A DNA stretch of 64,000 nucleotides from Fodinibius sp. Rm-B-1B1-1 (lineage in GTDB: Bacteria > Bacteroidota > Rhodothermia > Balneolales > Balneolaceae). Location of the stretch: assembly GCF_038594945.1 (NCBI RefSeq), contig NZ_JBCFYD010000001.1:62001-126000 (forward strand), given 5' to 3'. The notes beneath the pieces were generated by a model that ran no database searches, was not told where the DNA came from, and was given only the letters and a program-made list of their open reading frames with translations. Positions 903-10,830 of this stretch are shown here, piece after piece. Made by a program: the position numbers and the translations under genes. The first letter of the stretch is position 1. Every line of letters starts with the position of its first letter.

Positions 903-3338
903 TTATTCATAAATAGGCGGATACTTCGCCGGATTTGCCTCACTCATCAACGCGTAAACGGCCTCAAAAATATCTTCCTCGCTGGGCTTAGAGAAATAAT
1001 CTCCATCAGAACCATACGCCCCACGATGTTCTTTTGCAGTCAAGCACTGCGGCTCAGAGTCTAAATAATAATAACCCTTCTGTTCTTGGATCACCTTGTT
1101 CATCATAAAGGCTGAAGCACCGCCGGGTACATCCTCATCTACAAAAAGAATACGGTTGGTTTTCTTGAGGGATTCCACAATATCGTGATTGCGATCAAAC
1201 GGCAACAGAGTTCGCACGTCAATCAGTTCTGCTGAGATCCCTACCTCTTCTAACTCCGGTAATATCGACTCACAGATATTGCATGTAGCCCCATAGGATA
1301 CAATCGTAATATCTGTTCCACCCGAAATAACATTTGGTATACCAAGCGGTACTGTAAATTCACCTAAATTTTCAGGCAAATCTTCCTTCAAGCGATAAGC
1401 ATTCAGGGGTTCAATAACCAAGGCCGGATCATCCCCCTGAAGTAACGTATTATACATTCCTGCTGCATCAGTAAGGTTTCGTGGAACGCAAACGTGCACT
1501 CCTCTAACCCCATTGATTATCATTCCCATCGGCGAACCAGTGTGCCAGATTCCCTCCAAGCGATGCCCTCGCGTACGAACAATTAACGGCGCCTTCTGGC
1601 CGCCCATACTTCGATAACGAACTGTGGCAAGATCATCACTCAATCCCTGGAAACAATACAGCAGATAATCAAGATATTGAATTTCCGCAATGGGACGCAG
1701 GCCTCGCAGCGCCATCCCAATTCCCTGGCCTAAAATAGTAGCCTCCCGGATACCGGTATCACTGACACGCAGCTCACCGTACTTATCCTGCATATTTTCA
1801 AGGCCTTTATTAACATCACCAAGTTTCCCGGTATCTTCCCCAAAGACAAGTGTTTCAGGATACTTCTCGAAAAGCTTATCAAAGTTATCTCGCAAAACGA
1901 CACGACCATCTACACTTTTAGGATCGTCGCTATAAACAGGTGGGATCTCTTCTATATTTAGCGGTGATTCATCTCCTTCACTGTATAAATAACTATCATA
2001 ACGGTAACTGTTGGCTTGATTACTTTCTTTTAGCCACGCCTTTAAATCATCTTTGGCTGATAAATTTTCATCACGCGTTATTCGTAATGCTTTACGAACG
2101 CCCGAAACCACATATTTTCGCAATGGCACCATTGGGGCTTTCATATCTTTAATAACAGTCTTCAGCTCATCACTTTTTGTACTTTGATCAGCCAAGCTCT
2201 CGACCAGTTCTACAACCGTGTTAAGTTCTCCTTTCAGCTCCGAAGTAAACGATTTCCAAGCCGCTTTTTGTGCCTCCTTTACTTCCTCTTTGGCTTCTTC
2301 TTCGATTGTAGAAATTTCATCTTCAGTGGCTATTTCTTCCTCAATAAGCCAACCGCGAGTCTTATTTAGGCAGCAATACTCTTCTTCCCATTCCAAGCGC
2401 TCTTCTGATTTATATCGCTCGTGAGATCCCGAAGTCGAATGTCCCTGTGGCTGCGTAACTTCTGTCACATGCACTAATACCGGTACATGGTCTTCGCGTG
2501 CGATCTGAGCCGCTTTTTCATACGTTTCTAATAAAGCCGGATAATCCCAGGCATTTACTTTTAGGATCTCAAACCCTTCTTCCTCCTCGGTACGCTGAAA
2601 ACCTTTTAAAACTTCCGAAATACTTTCTTTGGTAGTCTGATACTTTCGTGGGACAGAAATGCCATATCCATCATCCCAGACCGACATCACCATCGGCACC
2701 TGTAACACGCCCGCTGCATTTATGGTCTCCCAGAAAACCCCTTCCGAAGTGCTGGCGTCACCGATTGTTCCCCAAGCTACTTCATTGCCCTCTTCGGAAA
2801 ATTTTTGAAAATGCTCATCGTCCAAAAGTGATTCATGATTCCGATACACTTTTGATGCTTCAGCTAATCCAAGCAGCCGTGACATCTGTCCCGCAGTGGG
2901 AGAAACATCCGGCGACGTATTTTTCATCTCCGTAAGATCTTTCCAGCTGCCATCCTCATTTAAACTACGAGTGCTAAAATGTGCATTCATCTGACGTCCA
3001 CCAGAATGAGGCTCCTCGTCGACATTAGCATGCGCATAAAGCTGTGCAAAAAACTGCTGCAAAGTAACCTGATCAATCGCCATCATAAACGTCTGATCAC
3101 GATAATATCCGGCACGAAAATCACCATCTTTAAAAAATTTGGCCATCGCAATCTGCGGCATCTCCTTACCGTCACCAAAAATTCCAAACTTGGCTTTGCC
3201 TGTTAATGTTTCTTTACGTCCTAAATAAGAAGCTTCCCTGCTTTTAAATGCCAACTTATAGTCATTTAAAAACTCTTGCTTCTGCTCCTTGGAATAAGAG
3301 ATATCCGATGACTTCTTCTTCGTTTTTGTAGGTGACAT
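903..3338 (-). CDS. Fused E1 alpha/beta 2-oxoacid (branched-chain type) dehydrogenase
   Basis: The 811-residue protein joins both halves of a thiamine-diphosphate E1 enzyme. The N-terminal half is E1-alpha, with the ThDP motif starting GDAST near residue 193 and closing at N207. The C-terminal half is E1-beta, with FGEDTGKLGDVNKGL, then the AEIQYLDYL segment and a transketolase C-terminal domain. A charged linker of about 100 residues separates them. Such fusions are known in Bacteroidota and are usually annotated as 2-oxoisovalerate dehydrogenase E1, which decarboxylates branched-chain 2-oxoacids for transfer to an E2 lipoyl protein. No E2 or E3 gene is adjacent, so substrate choice is uncertain. 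It precedes nothing obvious in an operon; fumC lies 65 bp upstream on the same strand. Confidence 0.9.
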   Translation of the reverse strand: MSPTKTKKKSSDISYSKEQKQEFLNDYKLAFKSREASYLGRKETLTGKAKFGIFGDGKEMPQIAMAKFFKDGDFRAGYYRDQTFMMAIDQVTLQQFFAQLYAHANVDEEPHSGGRQMNAHFSTRSLNEDGSWKDLTEMKNTSPDVSPTAGQMSRLLGLAEASKVYRNHESLLDDEHFQKFSEEGNEVAWGTIGDASTSEGVFWETINAAGVLQVPMVMSVWDDGYGISVPRKYQTTKESISEVLKGFQRTEEEEGFEILKVNAWDYPALLETYEKAAQIAREDHVPVLVHVTEVTQPQGHSTSGSHERYKSEERLEWEEEYCCLNKTRGWLIEEEIATEDEISTIEEEAKEEVKEAQKAAWKSFTSELKGELNTVVELVESLADQSTKSDELKTVIKDMKAPMVPLRKYVVSGVRKALRITRDENLSAKDDLKAWLKESNQANSYRYDSYLYSEGDESPLNIEEIPPVYSDDPKSVDGRVVLRDNFDKLFEKYPETLVFGEDTGKLGDVNKGLENMQDKYGELRVSDTGIREATILGQGIGMALRGLRPIAEIQYLDYLLYCFQGLSDDLATVRYRSMGGQKAPLIVRTRGHRLEGIWHTGSPMGMIINGVRGVHVCVPRNLTDAAGMYNTLLQGDDPALVIEPLNAYRLKEDLPENLGEFTVPLGIPNVISGGTDITIVSYGATCNICESILPELEEVGISAELIDVRTLLPFDRNHDIVESLKKTNRILFVDEDVPGGASAFMMNKVIQEQKGYYYLDSEPQCLTAKEHRGAYGSDGDYFSKPSEEDIFEAVYALMSEANPAKYPPIYE

Positions 3339-4964: not shown

Positions 4965-6098
4965 CTATAAATCATTACTGTACATACGGTAGGTCTTCTC
5001 AATCTCAGCACCAATTTTTTCGGCAACGCGAATCATATTTTTGTTGGATTCCAGCACCCAACTTAATTCGGATGATTTATATCCAGCCTCTTTTCCATTT
5101 ATGATCGCTTCTTTATGTAATAGGGCATCAATTCCCTTTCCCTGGTACTTTGGAACAACCCCCATTAAGGCAGTACGAATCTGATCAATATTTCGACGAT
5201 GCCACAGGAGTTTGAAAATTCCTGTGGGAAATAATGTCCCATCGGTATGCTTTAGTGCCTGATTTAAGTCTGGAAGTGCTATTGAAAAAGCAACAGGCTC
5301 TCCATCAACTTCAGCAATATGGGCAACTTTGGGATCTAAAATTAGCTTTAAATCCTTAGCTAATTCCTCAAGCTCTTCTTTTGTCCAGGGAATAAAACCC
5401 CAATTCTGCGACCATGCCTGGTTAAAGACATTCCGTACAATTTCAATTTCCTGGTCAAGATTTTTCGTGTCAATCTCGCGGATTTTCAACTTTGGCAACC
5501 GCCGACGCACAATCTCTTCGGCCCGATAGATTCTATCAAGCGTCACTGTAGCCTGCGTTACCCGAAAGGCATACATATCCATGGATTTTTCTAATCCGGC
5601 ATTCTTGATGAGCTTATCATAATATGGCTTGTGATAAGGCATCAAGAAACTGGGGTCATATTCAAAGCCATCTATTAAAACACCGATCTCATCCATCATA
5701 CTCGGGTTGGCTGGGCCTAATACATCAGTATGTCCACGCTGACGTAACCAATCACCGGCTACCTTGAACAATAAATTTGCTACAGACTGATCATCAATAC
5801 ATTCAAAAAAACCAAAAAAACCGGTTTTATTATTATGATGTTCGTTATACCGACGATCCTGAATAGCAGCAATACGTCCACAAATCTCACCATCCTGTTC
5901 GGCCAAAAACAGGGCTATATCCCCATTATCATAAAACGGATTATTCTCTGTATCGATAAGCTTTTTCTGCTCCATCTTGAGCGGAGGAATCCAGTGCTCA
6001 TCATCAGAGTAATGCTGATAAGGAAAGTCTATAAATTGTTTACGCTCACTTTTCGTCGTCGCAAGCGTAACACCGTTGATGCGCTGAACTGTTTCCAC
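4965..6098 (-). CDS. GNAT-fold acyltransferase, probable bacterial ceramide synthase (bCerS-like)
   Basis: This 377-residue protein has a C-terminal acetyltransferase fold with a GNAT motif A (GVVPKYQGKGIDALL, around residue 315). Its N-terminal half carries the conserved KTGFFGFFE and GPANPSMMDEIG segments seen in a GNAT-like family often labelled only 'hypothetical'. Its start codon lies 3 bp after the stop of the serine palmitoyltransferase gene, so the two are almost certainly translated from one transcript. In Caulobacter, sphingolipid synthesis uses Spt plus a GNAT-like acyl-CoA transferase called bCerS, which N-acylates the sphingoid base. Size, fold and neighbour fit that role, but the specific assignment is inferred. 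A different lipid or amine acyltransferase is the main alternative. Confidence 0.65.
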   Translation of the reverse strand: METVQRINGVTLATTKSERKQFIDFPYQHYSDDEHWIPPLKMEQKKLIDTENNPFYDNGDIALFLAEQDGEICGRIAAIQDRRYNEHHNNKTGFFGFFECIDDQSVANLLFKVAGDWLRQRGHTDVLGPANPSMMDEIGVLIDGFEYDPSFLMPYHKPYYDKLIKNAGLEKSMDMYAFRVTQATVTLDRIYRAEEIVRRRLPKLKIREIDTKNLDQEIEIVRNVFNQAWSQNWGFIPWTKEELEELAKDLKLILDPKVAHIAEVDGEPVAFSIALPDLNQALKHTDGTLFPTGIFKLLWHRRNIDQIRTALMGVVPKYQGKGIDALLHKEAIINGKEAGYKSSELSWVLESNKNMIRVAEKIGAEIEKTYRMYSNDL

Positions 6099-6101
6099 AA
6101 T

Positions 6102-7355
6102 CTAATCCATTTCAAGCAGTGAATGTCCATTCTGATCTATCATACCCTGCTCTATACCCACTTTTCGGAAAGCTTCCAAAATACGGTCTAAGTGGTCATC
6201 GGTATGCGTTGCCATATAGCTGGTACGTACAAGCGATTGGCCGCGTGGTACGCCCGGAGGAACCACTGCATTCACATAAACACCAGCCTCAAATAATCCT
6301 TTCCAGAATTCAAAACAATCCATCATCTCTCCAATAACTACAGGAATAATTGGCGTTTGGCTGCTCCATACATTAAAGCCCATATCACGGAGCGATTCGC
6401 GCATGTAGTTCGAAATTTCTTCCAATCGATCTAATCGCCACGTTTCATCCTGCAGAATTTCAAGCGCCTTCAACACAGTCGCCACATTGGCCGGGGGCAT
6501 AGAAGCACTAAAAATATGTGCGGGTGAATTATGACGGATGTATTCAATAACCTCGTGATCTCCCACTAAGAACCCCCCAAGTGAAGCAAAGGACTTAGAA
6601 AATGTTCCGCTAATCAGATCAACTTCATCCATCAAATCAAACGTAGAAGCAGAACCACGTCCGCCTTCGCCAACAACGCCAATAGCATGGGCATCATCCA
6701 AATAAAGACGTGCACCATGTTCATTTTTCAGTCGAACCAGCTCAGGCACATTAGCTATAGTCCCCGACATCGAAAACACGCCATCACTAACAATAATTTT
6801 ACCGGCCTCTTCTTCAGCACGCTCCATAAGCATTTCCAGCTGATCCATATCATTATGCTGAAAACGCATTGTCTTAGCATTTGATACGAGCGTTCCCGTA
6901 ACAATACAAGCATGATTATCTTTGTCAGAAAAGATCACATCCTTCCGTCCGGCAATTGTTTGAATAGCCCCTTCATTAGTCTGGTAGCCCGTACTAAACA
7001 ACACACAGGAGTCTTTACGCATAAACTCTGCGAGCTTCTCTTCAAGCTCGATATGCAAATCCAGCGTACCATTTAAATATCGTGATCCTGTACATCCGGT
7101 ACCATATACCTTAAGTACATCGGTTGCCGCTTCAATAACTCGGGGATCATTGGTCAGCCCCAAGTAGTTATTTGAACCAGCCATTATAACTTCACGTCCA
7201 TCAATCTGAACAGTGGTTCCGTCGGTTGCTTGAAGGGGCTTGAAATAGGGGTACAATCCCTTGGATTTTATTTCCTCAGCCTTGGTAAAATCATAGGCTT
7301 TGGCAAAAATATCGTTTGTTTTTACATCTGATTTAGAATCAGCCATTCGTTCCAT
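6102..7355 (-). CDS. spt: Serine palmitoyltransferase (alpha-oxoamine synthase)
   Basis: The 417-residue protein is a PLP-dependent alpha-oxoamine synthase. Visible residues are the ring-stacking His in SDKDNHA (H148), the PLP-pyridine Asp in LYLDDAHAIG (about D221), and the Schiff-base Lys in GTFSKS (K254). The GTFSKS form is typical of SPT, whereas KBL and BioF usually show a TLGKA-like motif. SPT condenses L-serine with palmitoyl-CoA to 3-ketodihydrosphingosine, the first step of sphingolipid synthesis. The GNAT-like gene 3 bp downstream supports this over BioF, and no other biotin genes are near. Two in-frame ATGs (7355 and 7346) could both serve as the start. Confidence 0.85.
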   Translation of the reverse strand: MERMADSKSDVKTNDIFAKAYDFTKAEEIKSKGLYPYFKPLQATDGTTVQIDGREVIMAGSNNYLGLTNDPRVIEAATDVLKVYGTGCTGSRYLNGTLDLHIELEEKLAEFMRKDSCVLFSTGYQTNEGAIQTIAGRKDVIFSDKDNHACIVTGTLVSNAKTMRFQHNDMDQLEMLMERAEEEAGKIIVSDGVFSMSGTIANVPELVRLKNEHGARLYLDDAHAIGVVGEGGRGSASTFDLMDEVDLISGTFSKSFASLGGFLVGDHEVIEYIRHNSPAHIFSASMPPANVATVLKALEILQDETWRLDRLEEISNYMRESLRDMGFNVWSSQTPIIPVVIGEMMDCFEFWKGLFEAGVYVNAVVPPGVPRGQSLVRTSYMATHTDDHLDRILEAFRKVGIEQGMIDQNGHSLLEMD

Positions 7356-7436: not shown

Positions 7437-8576
7437 TTATTTCTGAATAGAGGAAGTATATTTGGTGATTACAGTTTGAAAAAAGTCAATATACTGTTGA
7501 GCAATATGATCCCAACTGAATTGTTCTTGCACATAACTACGTGTTTGCTGCGAAAATTGTTCCAAATTATTCGAAAGTAATTGCGTAACCGTTTCTGCAA
7601 AGGTATCCGCATCACGCGGGGGCACTCGATAACCATTTTGGCCCTGCTCAATCACATCTTTGATGCCTTCCAAATCAGCAGCAACAGCTGGGGTTCGTGC
7701 CATATTTGCTTCAAGTAATACAATGCCAAATCCTTCCATATCACCTTCAACCGGGATATTCGGCATCACAAAAATATCGGCGGCTGCATAAGCCTGTTTA
7801 AGAACTTCATCGGGCTGTCGCCCTAAGAGAAAAATGCTGTTTTGATATGCCGAATCATCAACAGCATCATTAATATTATTAAATTCGGGGCCGTCCCCTA
7901 CGGTTACGTAAACAATATTATCGCCAAGTTTGGGCATTACTTCACGAATAAACCATTCGTGCCCCTTCCGTTTAACCTTACGTCCAACCGTAAGCAGCAT
8001 AAACTTGTTTTCCAGCGGAATCCGAAAATTCTTCTGCAACCGGTTCCGGGATTCCTTTTTATCGGGGAAATTATTTAACTTCTTAAAATCAAAACCGTTC
8101 GGTAATGATACCCCTTTCTCCGGATCCATTCCCCGCTTAATACATTCCTGGCGGGTTGCCCGAGAAACCGAGATTACCCCGTCAAGACTGTTAAAGACTT
8201 TGGGTACAAACCACTGATAAATCCCAACCGGCAAGGTAACATCACGTCCATGGTTAATAGTGATCATTGGGACTGATATTTTATCCCGCAGAAAGTACGC
8301 AAGGCTGGCCGTTACCATCGACGAAAATACGACGACATCCACATCATATTCGCGCACTTTATGAGGAAGCTCAAACAAATTCCGAAACAAAAAGCCTGTC
8401 GTATGCAGCGCTATCTTTCCATTCTCGGAAACATTGATGGTTTCCGTGATAACCTCAACCTCGCTCTTGCGCTTAAGTTCATTGATAAGTTGCTGGCTTA
8501 CCCGCTGCATGCCGCCCACATTATCCAAAATTTCGCCTTCGGGCGGATGGGTATGAGATACGTATAAAATTCGCAC
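7437..8576 (-). CDS. GT4-family glycosyltransferase
   Basis: This 379-residue GT-B fold enzyme starts with the N-terminal Rossmann sequence MRILYVSHTHPPEGE and a glycine-rich GGMQRVSQQL acceptor loop. The donor-site half carries KRKGHEWFI, VGDGPEF and the E-x7-E motif region EGFGIVLLEANMARTP. It belongs to the large retaining GT4 family (WaaG/PimB-like). It lies between another GT4 gene (21 bp upstream) and spt (81 bp downstream) on the same strand, so glycosylation of a membrane lipid such as ceramide is plausible. Lipopolysaccharide or capsule assembly is equally possible, since GT4 sequence alone does not give the acceptor. Confidence 0.85.
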   Translation of the reverse strand: MRILYVSHTHPPEGEILDNVGGMQRVSQQLINELKRKSEVEVITETINVSENGKIALHTTGFLFRNLFELPHKVREYDVDVVVFSSMVTASLAYFLRDKISVPMITINHGRDVTLPVGIYQWFVPKVFNSLDGVISVSRATRQECIKRGMDPEKGVSLPNGFDFKKLNNFPDKKESRNRLQKNFRIPLENKFMLLTVGRKVKRKGHEWFIREVMPKLGDNIVYVTVGDGPEFNNINDAVDDSAYQNSIFLLGRQPDEVLKQAYAAADIFVMPNIPVEGDMEGFGIVLLEANMARTPAVAADLEGIKDVIEQGQNGYRVPPRDADTFAETVTQLLSNNLEQFSQQTRSYVQEQFSWDHIAQQYIDFFQTVITKYTSSIQK

Positions 8577-8597: not shown

Positions 8598-9752
8598 CTA
8601 AAATTTTAGCTCTGGACGCGGCTCGTCAAGGGCTTCCCGGTAATTTTCAAGCAGCTTGTTGTTCACATTCTCCCACGAATACACTAACGCTTTTTGGCGC
8701 GCAGCTTTACTCATCTGCTCCCAAAGCTCACTATCATTCGTTATATCCGAAACACACTTAGCAAATCCCTGCGTATCACGTGGAGGGGCCAAAAATCCAT
8801 TGACGCCCGACTCTACTAATGATCGACTCCCGGTCGCATCAGCAACCACACACGGTAACCCACTCGACATTGCTTCCAACGTCACATTACCGAATGTTTC
8901 CGTTTCAGATGGAAATAAAAAGACATCACTGCTGGCATAAGCACGACTCAACTCATCACCTGTAATAAAACCGGTGAAATGTGCTTCCGGCAGCATGTGC
9001 TCGAGCTCTTTCTTGGCGGGCCCGTCTCCCACAACCATTGCTTTAATATCGGGATGACTTTGTTGCAGCTTTTTTATGGCATCAACATAAGTCTGGAGAT
9101 TTTTTTCCCACACTAAACGCGATACAAACGTCACAACGTTATCTTCGTCAGCAAACCCAATTGATCGGCGCCATTCCATATCCCTAAAATCGGGATTAAA
9201 CTGATCGGTATTTACGCCACGTGCCCAAATTCTAATTCCCTCATCAATACCTTCTTCATTGAGTTCATCGGCCATAGAAGGCGATGGTACGTATATATGC
9301 TTGCACTGGCTGTAAAACCAGCCGATGTATTTCCATCCCAATAATTCCAACATATCCAAATTATAATACTTCAAATAACTGGTAAAATGGGTGTGGTATG
9401 AGGCGACTATTTGAATTTGATTGGCCTGTGCCCAGCGCATAGCACGAAATCCCAGCACATCGGGCGTTGCCAAATGGATAAGCGTGGGCTCAAATTCACG
9501 GAGTCGCCGCTGGGCTTTTTCGGGAAATCCTACCGTAATACGATACTCCGACCGTCCGGGAACGGGAACAGAAGGCACCGGGACAAATTCCCCCTCATGA
9601 TCGATAGCAGGCTCATCAGTAGTAGGGCCAAATACGATAACAGGAACTCCCTTTTCTTCCAGAAAGGCCACTAATCTATTCAGGGTAAGCGAAACTCCAT
9701 CCTGAATATGATTATAATTTCCGGTAAAAATGGCGACTCTAAGTTCTTTCAT
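8598..9752 (-). CDS. GT4-family glycosyltransferase, lipid-glycosylating (SqdX/MgtA-like)
   Basis: The 384-residue GT-B protein opens with VAIFTGNYNHIQDGVSLTLN and has YHTHFTSYLKYYN, a segment typical of the GDP-mannose or UDP-sulfoquinovose lipid-glycosyltransferase subgroup. The donor site shows VSRLVWEKNL, VGDGPAKKEL and ETETFGNVTLEAMSSGLP. It is the first gene of the minus-strand run leading into spt. Proteins of this subgroup transfer sugars to diacylglycerol or similar lipids at the inner face of the cytoplasmic membrane, which fits a glycosphingolipid or glycolipid role here. The 103-bp gap to the divergent SDR gene at 9856 should hold both promoters. Confidence 0.85.
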   Translation of the reverse strand: MKELRVAIFTGNYNHIQDGVSLTLNRLVAFLEEKGVPVIVFGPTTDEPAIDHEGEFVPVPSVPVPGRSEYRITVGFPEKAQRRLREFEPTLIHLATPDVLGFRAMRWAQANQIQIVASYHTHFTSYLKYYNLDMLELLGWKYIGWFYSQCKHIYVPSPSMADELNEEGIDEGIRIWARGVNTDQFNPDFRDMEWRRSIGFADEDNVVTFVSRLVWEKNLQTYVDAIKKLQQSHPDIKAMVVGDGPAKKELEHMLPEAHFTGFITGDELSRAYASSDVFLFPSETETFGNVTLEAMSSGLPCVVADATGSRSLVESGVNGFLAPPRDTQGFAKCVSDITNDSELWEQMSKAARQKALVYSWENVNNKLLENYREALDEPRPELKF

Positions 9753-9855: not shown

Positions 9856-10830
9856 ATGAAAGCCTTCGTAACTGGCGGCACAGGTTTTATTGGAAGTCAT
9901 CTGGCCGACGCTCTTATTGATTCTGACGACTATTCCGAAGTTCGTTGCCTTATTCGCAGCAATGAAAAGTGGCTCAAAGGAAAAAACTTTACGCCCATTC
10001 GTGGTGATCTGGACGACCTTCCTGTGCTTAAAAAAGCGGTGCAAGATGTCGATGTCATTTTCCATATAGCCGGACGTGTCAAAGCACCATCCTATGAGGA
10101 ATTGAAACATGCTAATGTGGATGCCACCGAAAACCTTCTCCGGATCGCCCAAAAAGAGGGCGTCCCTAAAATAGTGGTACTCTCCTCCCTGGCTGCGGTT
10201 GGGCCCAGCGAAAATGGCCCTGTAACTGAAGACAAACCCATGAATCCGGTTAGTAATTACGGGCGATCAAAAAAAGAGATGGAGGAAGTTATCCACGAGG
10301 TTGCTAATGGACAAACCTCAATTACGATTTTGCGTCCGCCTGCGGTGTACGGCCCCCGCGAAGATCAGATATACAGCTTTTTTAAGATGATGAACAAGCG
10401 TATCTGTCCTATTATTGGTGACGGGAAGCATCCCAAAGTATCAATGATTTATGTGGGTGATGTCGTTAACGGTATCTTTAAGGCTGTTGATCAAACAGAC
10501 AAAGGTGTACATACTTATTTTGTATCGGGACCAGAAATCTATGACTGGGAGCAAATTCGCGGAACTACCTCCAAGGTATTAGGTAAAAAGACATTACCTA
10601 TATACGTTAAACCAGAACTGGTTAAAACCATTGTCGGAACGGTTGAAAAAGCTGCATCATTTTTTGGGATGTATCCCGTTCTTAACAAGGAAAAGGCAAA
10701 AGAATTAATTTTAGAATGGACGTGCTCTAACGAAAAAGCACATCGCGAACTCGGCTATACCCCCCAATACTCACTTGGAGAAGGTATTTCGCGTACGATC
10801 CACTGGTATAAAAAACATCATTGGCTATAA
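9856..10830 (+). CDS. NAD(P)-dependent extended SDR / epimerase-dehydratase, candidate ceramide reductase
   Basis: I start this gene at the ATG of 9856 because the nucleotide-binding motif GGTGFIG then falls at residues 7 to 13, as is normal. The longer frame from 9778 adds 26 residues unlike the family. The 324-residue protein has the extended-SDR catalytic pair YGRSK, an active-site LSSLAAVG strand and the RPPAVYGPRE substrate loop. It is divergent from the glycosyltransferase-spt-GNAT run. Caulobacter sphingolipid synthesis includes an NAD-dependent epimerase-like reductase (CerR) that reduces the 3-keto group; this gene is a candidate by family and position only. A nucleotide-sugar epimerase or 3-beta-hydroxysteroid-type enzyme is also possible. 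Confidence 0.7.
   Translation: MKAFVTGGTGFIGSHLADALIDSDDYSEVRCLIRSNEKWLKGKNFTPIRGDLDDLPVLKKAVQDVDVIFHIAGRVKAPSYEELKHANVDATENLLRIAQKEGVPKIVVLSSLAAVGPSENGPVTEDKPMNPVSNYGRSKKEMEEVIHEVANGQTSITILRPPAVYGPREDQIYSFFKMMNKRICPIIGDGKHPKVSMIYVGDVVNGIFKAVDQTDKGVHTYFVSGPEIYDWEQIRGTTSKVLGKKTLPIYVKPELVKTIVGTVEKAASFFGMYPVLNKEKAKELILEWTCSNEKAHRELGYTPQYSLGEGISRTIHWYKKHHWL

Follow-up and report, generated by a model that had tools for sequence, protein, structure and literature searches.

Gene content of the cluster

We analysed a 64,000-nucleotide stretch of the Fodinibius sp. Rm-B-1B1-1 genome (contig NZ_JBCFYD010000001.1, positions 62,001 to 126,000; hereafter the window, numbered from its first letter), in which a predicted serine palmitoyltransferase (SPT) gene, spt, is followed at once by a gene for a GNAT N-acyltransferase. 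Judged from sequence, the pair very probably belongs to a dihydroceramide biosynthesis unit made up of SPT, a GNAT of the YghO/bCerS family, a reductase of the short-chain dehydrogenase/reductase (SDR) type and two enzymes of glycosyltransferase family 4 (GT4):

6102..7355, minus strand: spt, predicted Bacteroidota-type serine palmitoyltransferase (417 aa, ATG start; assigned by NCBIfam, PDB, motif and tree)
4965..6098, minus strand: cerS/bCerS, predicted YghO-family GNAT N-acyltransferase (377 aa, GTG start; assigned by Pfam Acetyltransf_1 and similarity to YghO)
9856..10830, plus strand, running divergently to the glycosyltransferase, spt and cerS genes: cerR candidate, putative ceramide reductase of the NAD-dependent epimerase/SDR type (324 aa; assigned as best genome-wide match to cluster reductases)
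8598..9752, minus strand: GT4 glycosyltransferase 2 (GT2), candidate ceramide glycosyltransferase (384 aa; assigned by profile matches and conservation)
7437..8576, minus strand: GT4 glycosyltransferase 1 (GT1), a less conserved cluster member (379 aa; assigned by profile matches)

The spacer between spt and the GNAT gene is exactly 3 bp, the junction reading stop TAG, ATT, start GTG. The first-pass annotation of this DNA had given the same distance, together with a GTFSKS motif in the first protein and a length of about 380 residues for the second, and all three agree with the open reading frames. The cerR candidate likely starts at the ATG at 9856. Intergenic gaps within the cluster do not exceed 103 bp, so there is no room in it for an acpR gene (the rest of the genome was not searched for acpR or aasR).

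From sequence-based gene identities, gene adjacency and order-wide conservation, we infer a route in which SPT would form 3-ketosphinganine out of serine and a long-chain fatty-acyl thioester, the GNAT would N-acylate the sphingoid base and thereby add the second acyl chain, the SDR protein (9856-10830, plus strand) would reduce the 3-keto group, and the two GT4 enzymes would probably add sugar to the product, with co-transcription presumed. Acylation and reduction could come in either order, which is disputed for Caulobacter in passages of PMC11087976 and PMC11324152.

Assignment of the cluster enzymes

Several lines of evidence support the first gene as a predicted Bacteroidota-type SPT. Against NCBIfam, its product scored best with the Bacteroidetes SPT model (497.7 bits), followed by SerpalmtaseBetaP (389.4), a BioF/Kbl-like model (384.8), glycine C-acetyltransferase (KBL, 383.9), BioF (381.1) and 5-aminolevulinate synthase (274.9). 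Against PDB, the best match was S. multivorum SPT (416 bits), with the other SPT 2x8u at 291 bits, BioF/KBL-type chains at 281 bits or less, and cysteate acyltransferase structures at 226 (28eh) and 216 bits (7u7h). Alignment with 3a2b placed the pyridoxal phosphate (PLP) lysine (GTFSK), the ring-stacking His, the Asp/His, the substrate Arg and the Asn all in register, the residue roles being those described in passages of PMC9304779. A tree of 43 rows, most of them labelled from gene context, annotation or similarity rather than assays, joined the window SPT to all 27 other SPT-labelled rows (support 83/73), separate from the rows of BioF, KBL and the cysteate acyltransferase SulA, and favours SPT only moderately. 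SPT had been the first-pass annotation's best reading of this gene, and the profile and structure comparisons support it; the tree, at modest support, is not decisive.

The second protein carries Pfam PF00583 (Acetyltransf_1) over cut-off in its C-terminal part (residues 235-363). Over nearly the whole length it is 36.2% identical to E. coli YghO (E 2e-78) and 38.5% identical to a cluster gene of Sphingomonas parapaucimobilis (E 3e-86). Both of these belong to the GNAT family members that we found in 45 plasmid records, and each lies near genes for an acyl carrier protein, an SPT-like protein and a protein that is either epimerase-type or NAD(P)H-binding. Because the window protein resembles YghO, and a figure legend in PMC9386255 gives yghO (ECD_02850) and CC_1154 of Caulobacter as counterparts, its membership in the YghO/bCerS family is supported by way of these two listed relatives; CC_1154 is named cerS in a passage of PMC11324152. 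PMC9386255 also voices the suspicion that E. coli BL21(DE3) possesses ceramide enzymes itself. A PDB sequence search with the GNAT gave no match (best E 0.1), and an AlphaFold model of moderate confidence (7 sequences, mean predicted local distance difference test score 64) matched tandem-GNAT structures best (7q3a, E 4e-11), with N-myristoyltransferases at ranks 47 and 50. A GNAT fold and bCerS kinship, both proposed in the first pass, are supported by the YghO and Sphingomonas similarity, the Pfam domain and the tandem-GNAT matches. Of the six matches to the window GNAT that bore names, four lie on Aliifodinibius/Fodinibius contigs (78-91% protein identity); the other two come from far relatives (39-41%).

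The first-pass annotation overlooked the gene at 9856-10830 (plus strand), which is probably the third core gene, encoding a CerR-like reductase. Searches of the whole genome with the reductases of an E. coli-plasmid cluster and of a Rubrobacter cluster both returned this gene as the best match, at 88.8 bits (next 34.7) and 146.7 bits (next 60), respectively. Its product is 38.9% identical to the reductase beside spt on an Aureispira plasmid and 24-31% identical to five other cluster reductases, and its N-terminus, MKAFVTGGTGFIG, has the NAD-binding Gly motif right at the protein start. The gene was present in 34 of 37 relatives from our order-level set (38 genomes including the window's own; the relatives contribute 38 loci), and contig ends cut the other three.

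Since two GT4 genes sit between the reductase and spt-cerS, the cluster may yield dihydroceramide in glycosylated form, and position and below-cut-off matches to lipid glycosyltransferase models suggest such a role for both enzymes. The best NCBIfam match of GT2 was a lipid glycosyltransferase model at 164.5 bits, under its cut-off of 480, and GT2 is hence not a member. Of the 37 relatives, 35 carry GT2 and two are cut by contig ends, and every locus that contig ends leave uncut has it; GT1 occurred in 29 of the relatives' 38 loci. In one locus (L079), a GT2-like protein (26%) occupies the place of GT1.

Conservation of the arrangement and alternative readings

Across the order-level set, spt and the GNAT gene were adjacent on the same strand, with the GNAT downstream, in 37/38 genomes; in the exception (G013) a contig end truncates the GNAT and the search gave no SPT, and in G030 spt is split across two contigs. 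The full order, cerR (divergent)-GT2-GT1-spt-cerS, was seen in 28/38 relatives' loci and the same order without GT1 in 5/38, while the remaining 5 were cut by contig ends. The distance from SPT stop to GNAT start, measurable with script-chosen start codons at 35 of the 38 loci (L099, L107 and L109 gave none), had a median of 5 bp, with 3 bp in 11 loci and 53-465 bp in four.

We also surveyed a 99-genome sample of the phylum, taking as SPT only the 73 highest-scoring places (at least 385 bits; 72 genomes), leaving out two GNAT matches under 33 bits (G097, G053) and reporting figures among the matches listed, with weaker ones uncounted. The GNAT adjoined 43 of these 73 SPT places, and one family (f18) had the adjacency in none of its 20 SPT-bearing genomes. 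A GNAT of the family was present in 88/92 genomes with an SPT or SulA-type synthase, compared with 3/7 genomes without. Adjacency of spt and the GNAT gene is therefore ordinary for the phylum, and because it is so widespread we rejected the idea of an unusual operon. A passage of PMC11324152 has bacterial cerS lying in an operon separate from spt. The adjacent pairs (43 of 73 phylum places, and 3 bp apart in the window) correct this statement: as far as gene order goes, and with cerS identified by sequence, they contradict the published claim that cerS in bacteria is invariably found apart from spt.

The proposal that near-zero spacing marks a pathway unit, made in the first pass, is supported but incomplete: the pair is kept across the order and the SPT and bCerS readings are supported, but the cerR candidate and the glycosyltransferases had been missed, and close spacing is common in the wider phylum. 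That annotation also left the strand unstated and made no mention of the divergent reductase gene.

A number of results count against reading the pair as SPT and ceramide synthase. No NCBIfam model reached its curated cut-off with the spt product (best 497.7 versus 640 bits), and the window SPT is not filed in the Bacteroidetes SPT equivalog NF047600, whose 640-bit cut-off was passed in 0/38 order-level genomes and 1/14 control genomes. The alphaproteobacterial SPT model scored 313.7 bits, under the KBL and BioF models, and the Sphingomonas SPT structures (2w8/2jg group) scored 258-262 bits, under KBL/BioF-type chains. The SPT grouping in the tree is weak (83/73): in approximately unbiased (AU) tests, a tree holding the window-type SPT together with BioF gave p 0.10, with KBL a borderline 0.047 and with SulA 0.36. 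As for the second gene, GNATs of the family also occur where no SPT was seen nearby (L027, L071), so that family alone leaves the substrate unfixed, and the larger of our two GNAT trees (41 and 60 chosen rows rather than all matches, with the duplicate row L263 dropped from the larger) leaves open the fork of the YghO, paralogue and window branches. The first of these loci, from a Deltaproteobacteria metagenome-assembled genome, has a YghO-family GNAT (L027:9971-11095, 39% to that of the window) among apparent genes for glycosyltransferases and radical-SAM proteins, and reading the open reading frame list of its 21-kb locus by eye showed no SPT; from this context, the YghO family may have other substrates.

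These several clades and SPT-free members leave some scope for a reading in which SPT is real, the window GNAT modifies something else, and the sphingoid base is N-acylated by a second YghO-family GNAT encoded outside the window (L170:8220-9362; G000:C2:138219-139358), which is 31% identical to the window GNAT and whose 18-kb stretch showed no SPT by eye among its open reading frames. We consider this unlikely: the window GNAT sits among SPT-adjacent GNATs, it is closer than the paralogue both to YghO (36% against 25%) and to the Sphingomonas gene (38.5% against 26%), and the 15 relatives of families f2-f5 have the SPT-linked copy only.

Even less probable is that the first gene is BioF, of biotin synthesis, or KBL, of threonine catabolism, with the GNAT an unrelated neighbour. 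All three enzymes are alpha-oxoamine synthases, and the Fodinibius paper PMC9909488 reports bioF for all Balneolaceae studied. The first-pass annotation had named placement with BioF or KBL, together with a lack of sphingoid bases, as the outcome that would speak against its SPT call; the tree gave no such placement, although the AU test leaves a clade with BioF unrejected, and the tree alone is insufficient against BioF. We rejected the reading on scores, a missing bioA and gene context: SPT leads by more than 100 bits in profile and PDB comparisons, bioA matches in the genome all fall short of the cut-off (best 264.2 versus 405 bits), BioF-like and KBL-like sequences of relatives fall on other branches, and the GNAT linkage recurs almost throughout the order-level set (37/38). 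For A. salipaludis, the same source reports bioB and bioF only. Because the only two alpha-oxoamine synthases found in G002, the genome matching A. salipaludis, are a window-type SPT and a Lys281-type gene, the reported bioF of A. salipaludis is probably one of these two, the SPT or the SulA-type gene.

Equally improbable is a sulfonolipid pair, in which the first gene would encode SulA/CFAT, a cysteate acyltransferase, and N-acylation of capnine would fall to the GNAT: SulA shares the fold and its clade with the window-type SPT is unrejected, but a single residue 30 positions past the PLP lysine tells SulA (Lys281) from SPT (Ala) according to a passage of PMC9304779, where known SulA have Lys, and we rejected this reading on that position, which is Ala in the window SPT (FSAS) and in 36/36 of the relatives' SPT matches with the motif read (FSASM), while another gene of the same genome carries the Lys. 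SPT followed by a bCerS-family GNAT is hence the reading that we retain for the window pair.

On the 3' side, the pair is followed by genes for a fumarase/aspartase-like protein and for the E1 component of a 2-oxoacid dehydrogenase. The latter (903-3338, minus strand) encodes a single 811-aa alpha-plus-beta protein; in 12/15 relatives of families f2-f5, two separate and weaker matches (28-33%) stand at about this position instead. Searches of the window for tRNA and Rfam families found none. Scans for promoters and terminators were at chance (16 promoter-like sites against a shuffle mean of 12.7, and 3 terminator-like sites against 5.4), and a Bacteroidetes-type promoter pattern was absent from both intergenic regions tried.

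SulA-type synthase, second acyltransferase and relation to known systems

Outside the window lies the genome's only other alpha-oxoamine synthase found (L171:8746-9984; G000:C1:1006745-1007980), with Lys at the SulA Lys281 position (IFAKS). This residue leads us to predict a cysteate acyltransferase, and with it synthesis of sulfonolipids besides ceramides. A SulA-type gene was present in 21/38 order-level genomes (two with a one-residue offset). In the phylum sample, where SulA-type was defined by similarity (E 1e-90 or better), 35/99 genomes had a close match, and both lysines were present in all 30 that were aligned out of the 35.

In the larger GNAT tree, all 11 chosen rows on the branch of the second GNAT (the paralogue from this genome and ten others) came from SulA-bearing genomes. 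A tally by eye of the order-level set gave 21 genomes with both the SulA-type gene and a second GNAT, one with the second GNAT only, none with the SulA-type gene only and 16 with neither; this co-occurrence is nearly all one family-level split and is weakened by the phylum set. In three genomes of one family (G091, G061 and G101; loci L234, L289 and L290), the SulA-type gene and a GNAT gene of another branch are oppositely oriented and 118-881 bp apart.

A tentative and rather doubtful extension would make YghO/bCerS GNATs general N-acyltransferases for the products of long-chain alpha-oxoamine synthases, with Balneolaceae running the SPT-linked GNAT for (glyco)ceramides and the second GNAT, as a missing last sulfonolipid enzyme, for N-acylation of capnine. 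Against it, a search with the paralogue at E 1e-30 gave no second match in 7/13 genomes of family f1 with a SulA-type gene, 3/35 SulA genomes lacked a counted GNAT, and second GNATs occurred in 11 genomes with SPT and no SulA-type match, the eight of these in the tree all lying on the other branch. From sequence comparison, the second GNAT could be a capnine N-acyltransferase, and we offer this as a lead only.

For the window cluster, the grouping of three core enzymes with two candidate sugar transferases in a single conserved neighbourhood turns ceramide production in Balneolota into a testable prediction. Among the publications listed, which for one search were 20 of 16,048 matches, none was on sphingolipids in Balneolota by title or abstract opening; this is not proof of absence, and PMC12493201 contains both words. 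The spt-cerS pair is common in the wider Bacteroidota and also occurs on two actinobacterial plasmids, and we suggest that some published bioF calls in Balneolaceae are SPT or SulA-type genes. What the cluster contributes is a group that has been little studied, a compact order of genes and a corrected point in the literature.

Among relatives of the first enzyme, the sulfonolipid synthase SulA/CFAT is homologous but has Lys at SulA-281 where the window has Ala. The SPTs of Bacteroidales (for example Bacteroides, Parabacteroides, Prevotella) occupy the same region of the tree as the window SPT. The cluster has the same three predicted activities as Caulobacter crescentus (Spt; CerS/bCerS, CC_1154; CerR, CC_1164), and its GNAT falls in the family in which PMC9386255 lists CC_1154 and YghO. 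It differs from Caulobacter in its divergent cerR candidate, in the two GT4 genes inside and in having no acpR-sized gap; CerR is periplasmic in Caulobacter according to a passage of PMC11087976. In sphingolipid-producing Bacteroidota, the three sphingolipid genes are described as not close together (PMC11334938). In the plasmid clusters of Rubrobacter and Streptomyces (L060, L070), the gene directly after spt encodes a same-family GNAT (38% and 37% identical to that of the window), the epimerase/reductase is contiguous as third gene of the same run and, unlike in the window, there is no glycosyltransferase inside. On the Aureispira plasmid a divergent reductase stands beside spt-cerS. The arrangement is a conserved form of a bacterial pathway that is already known, and not new in kind.
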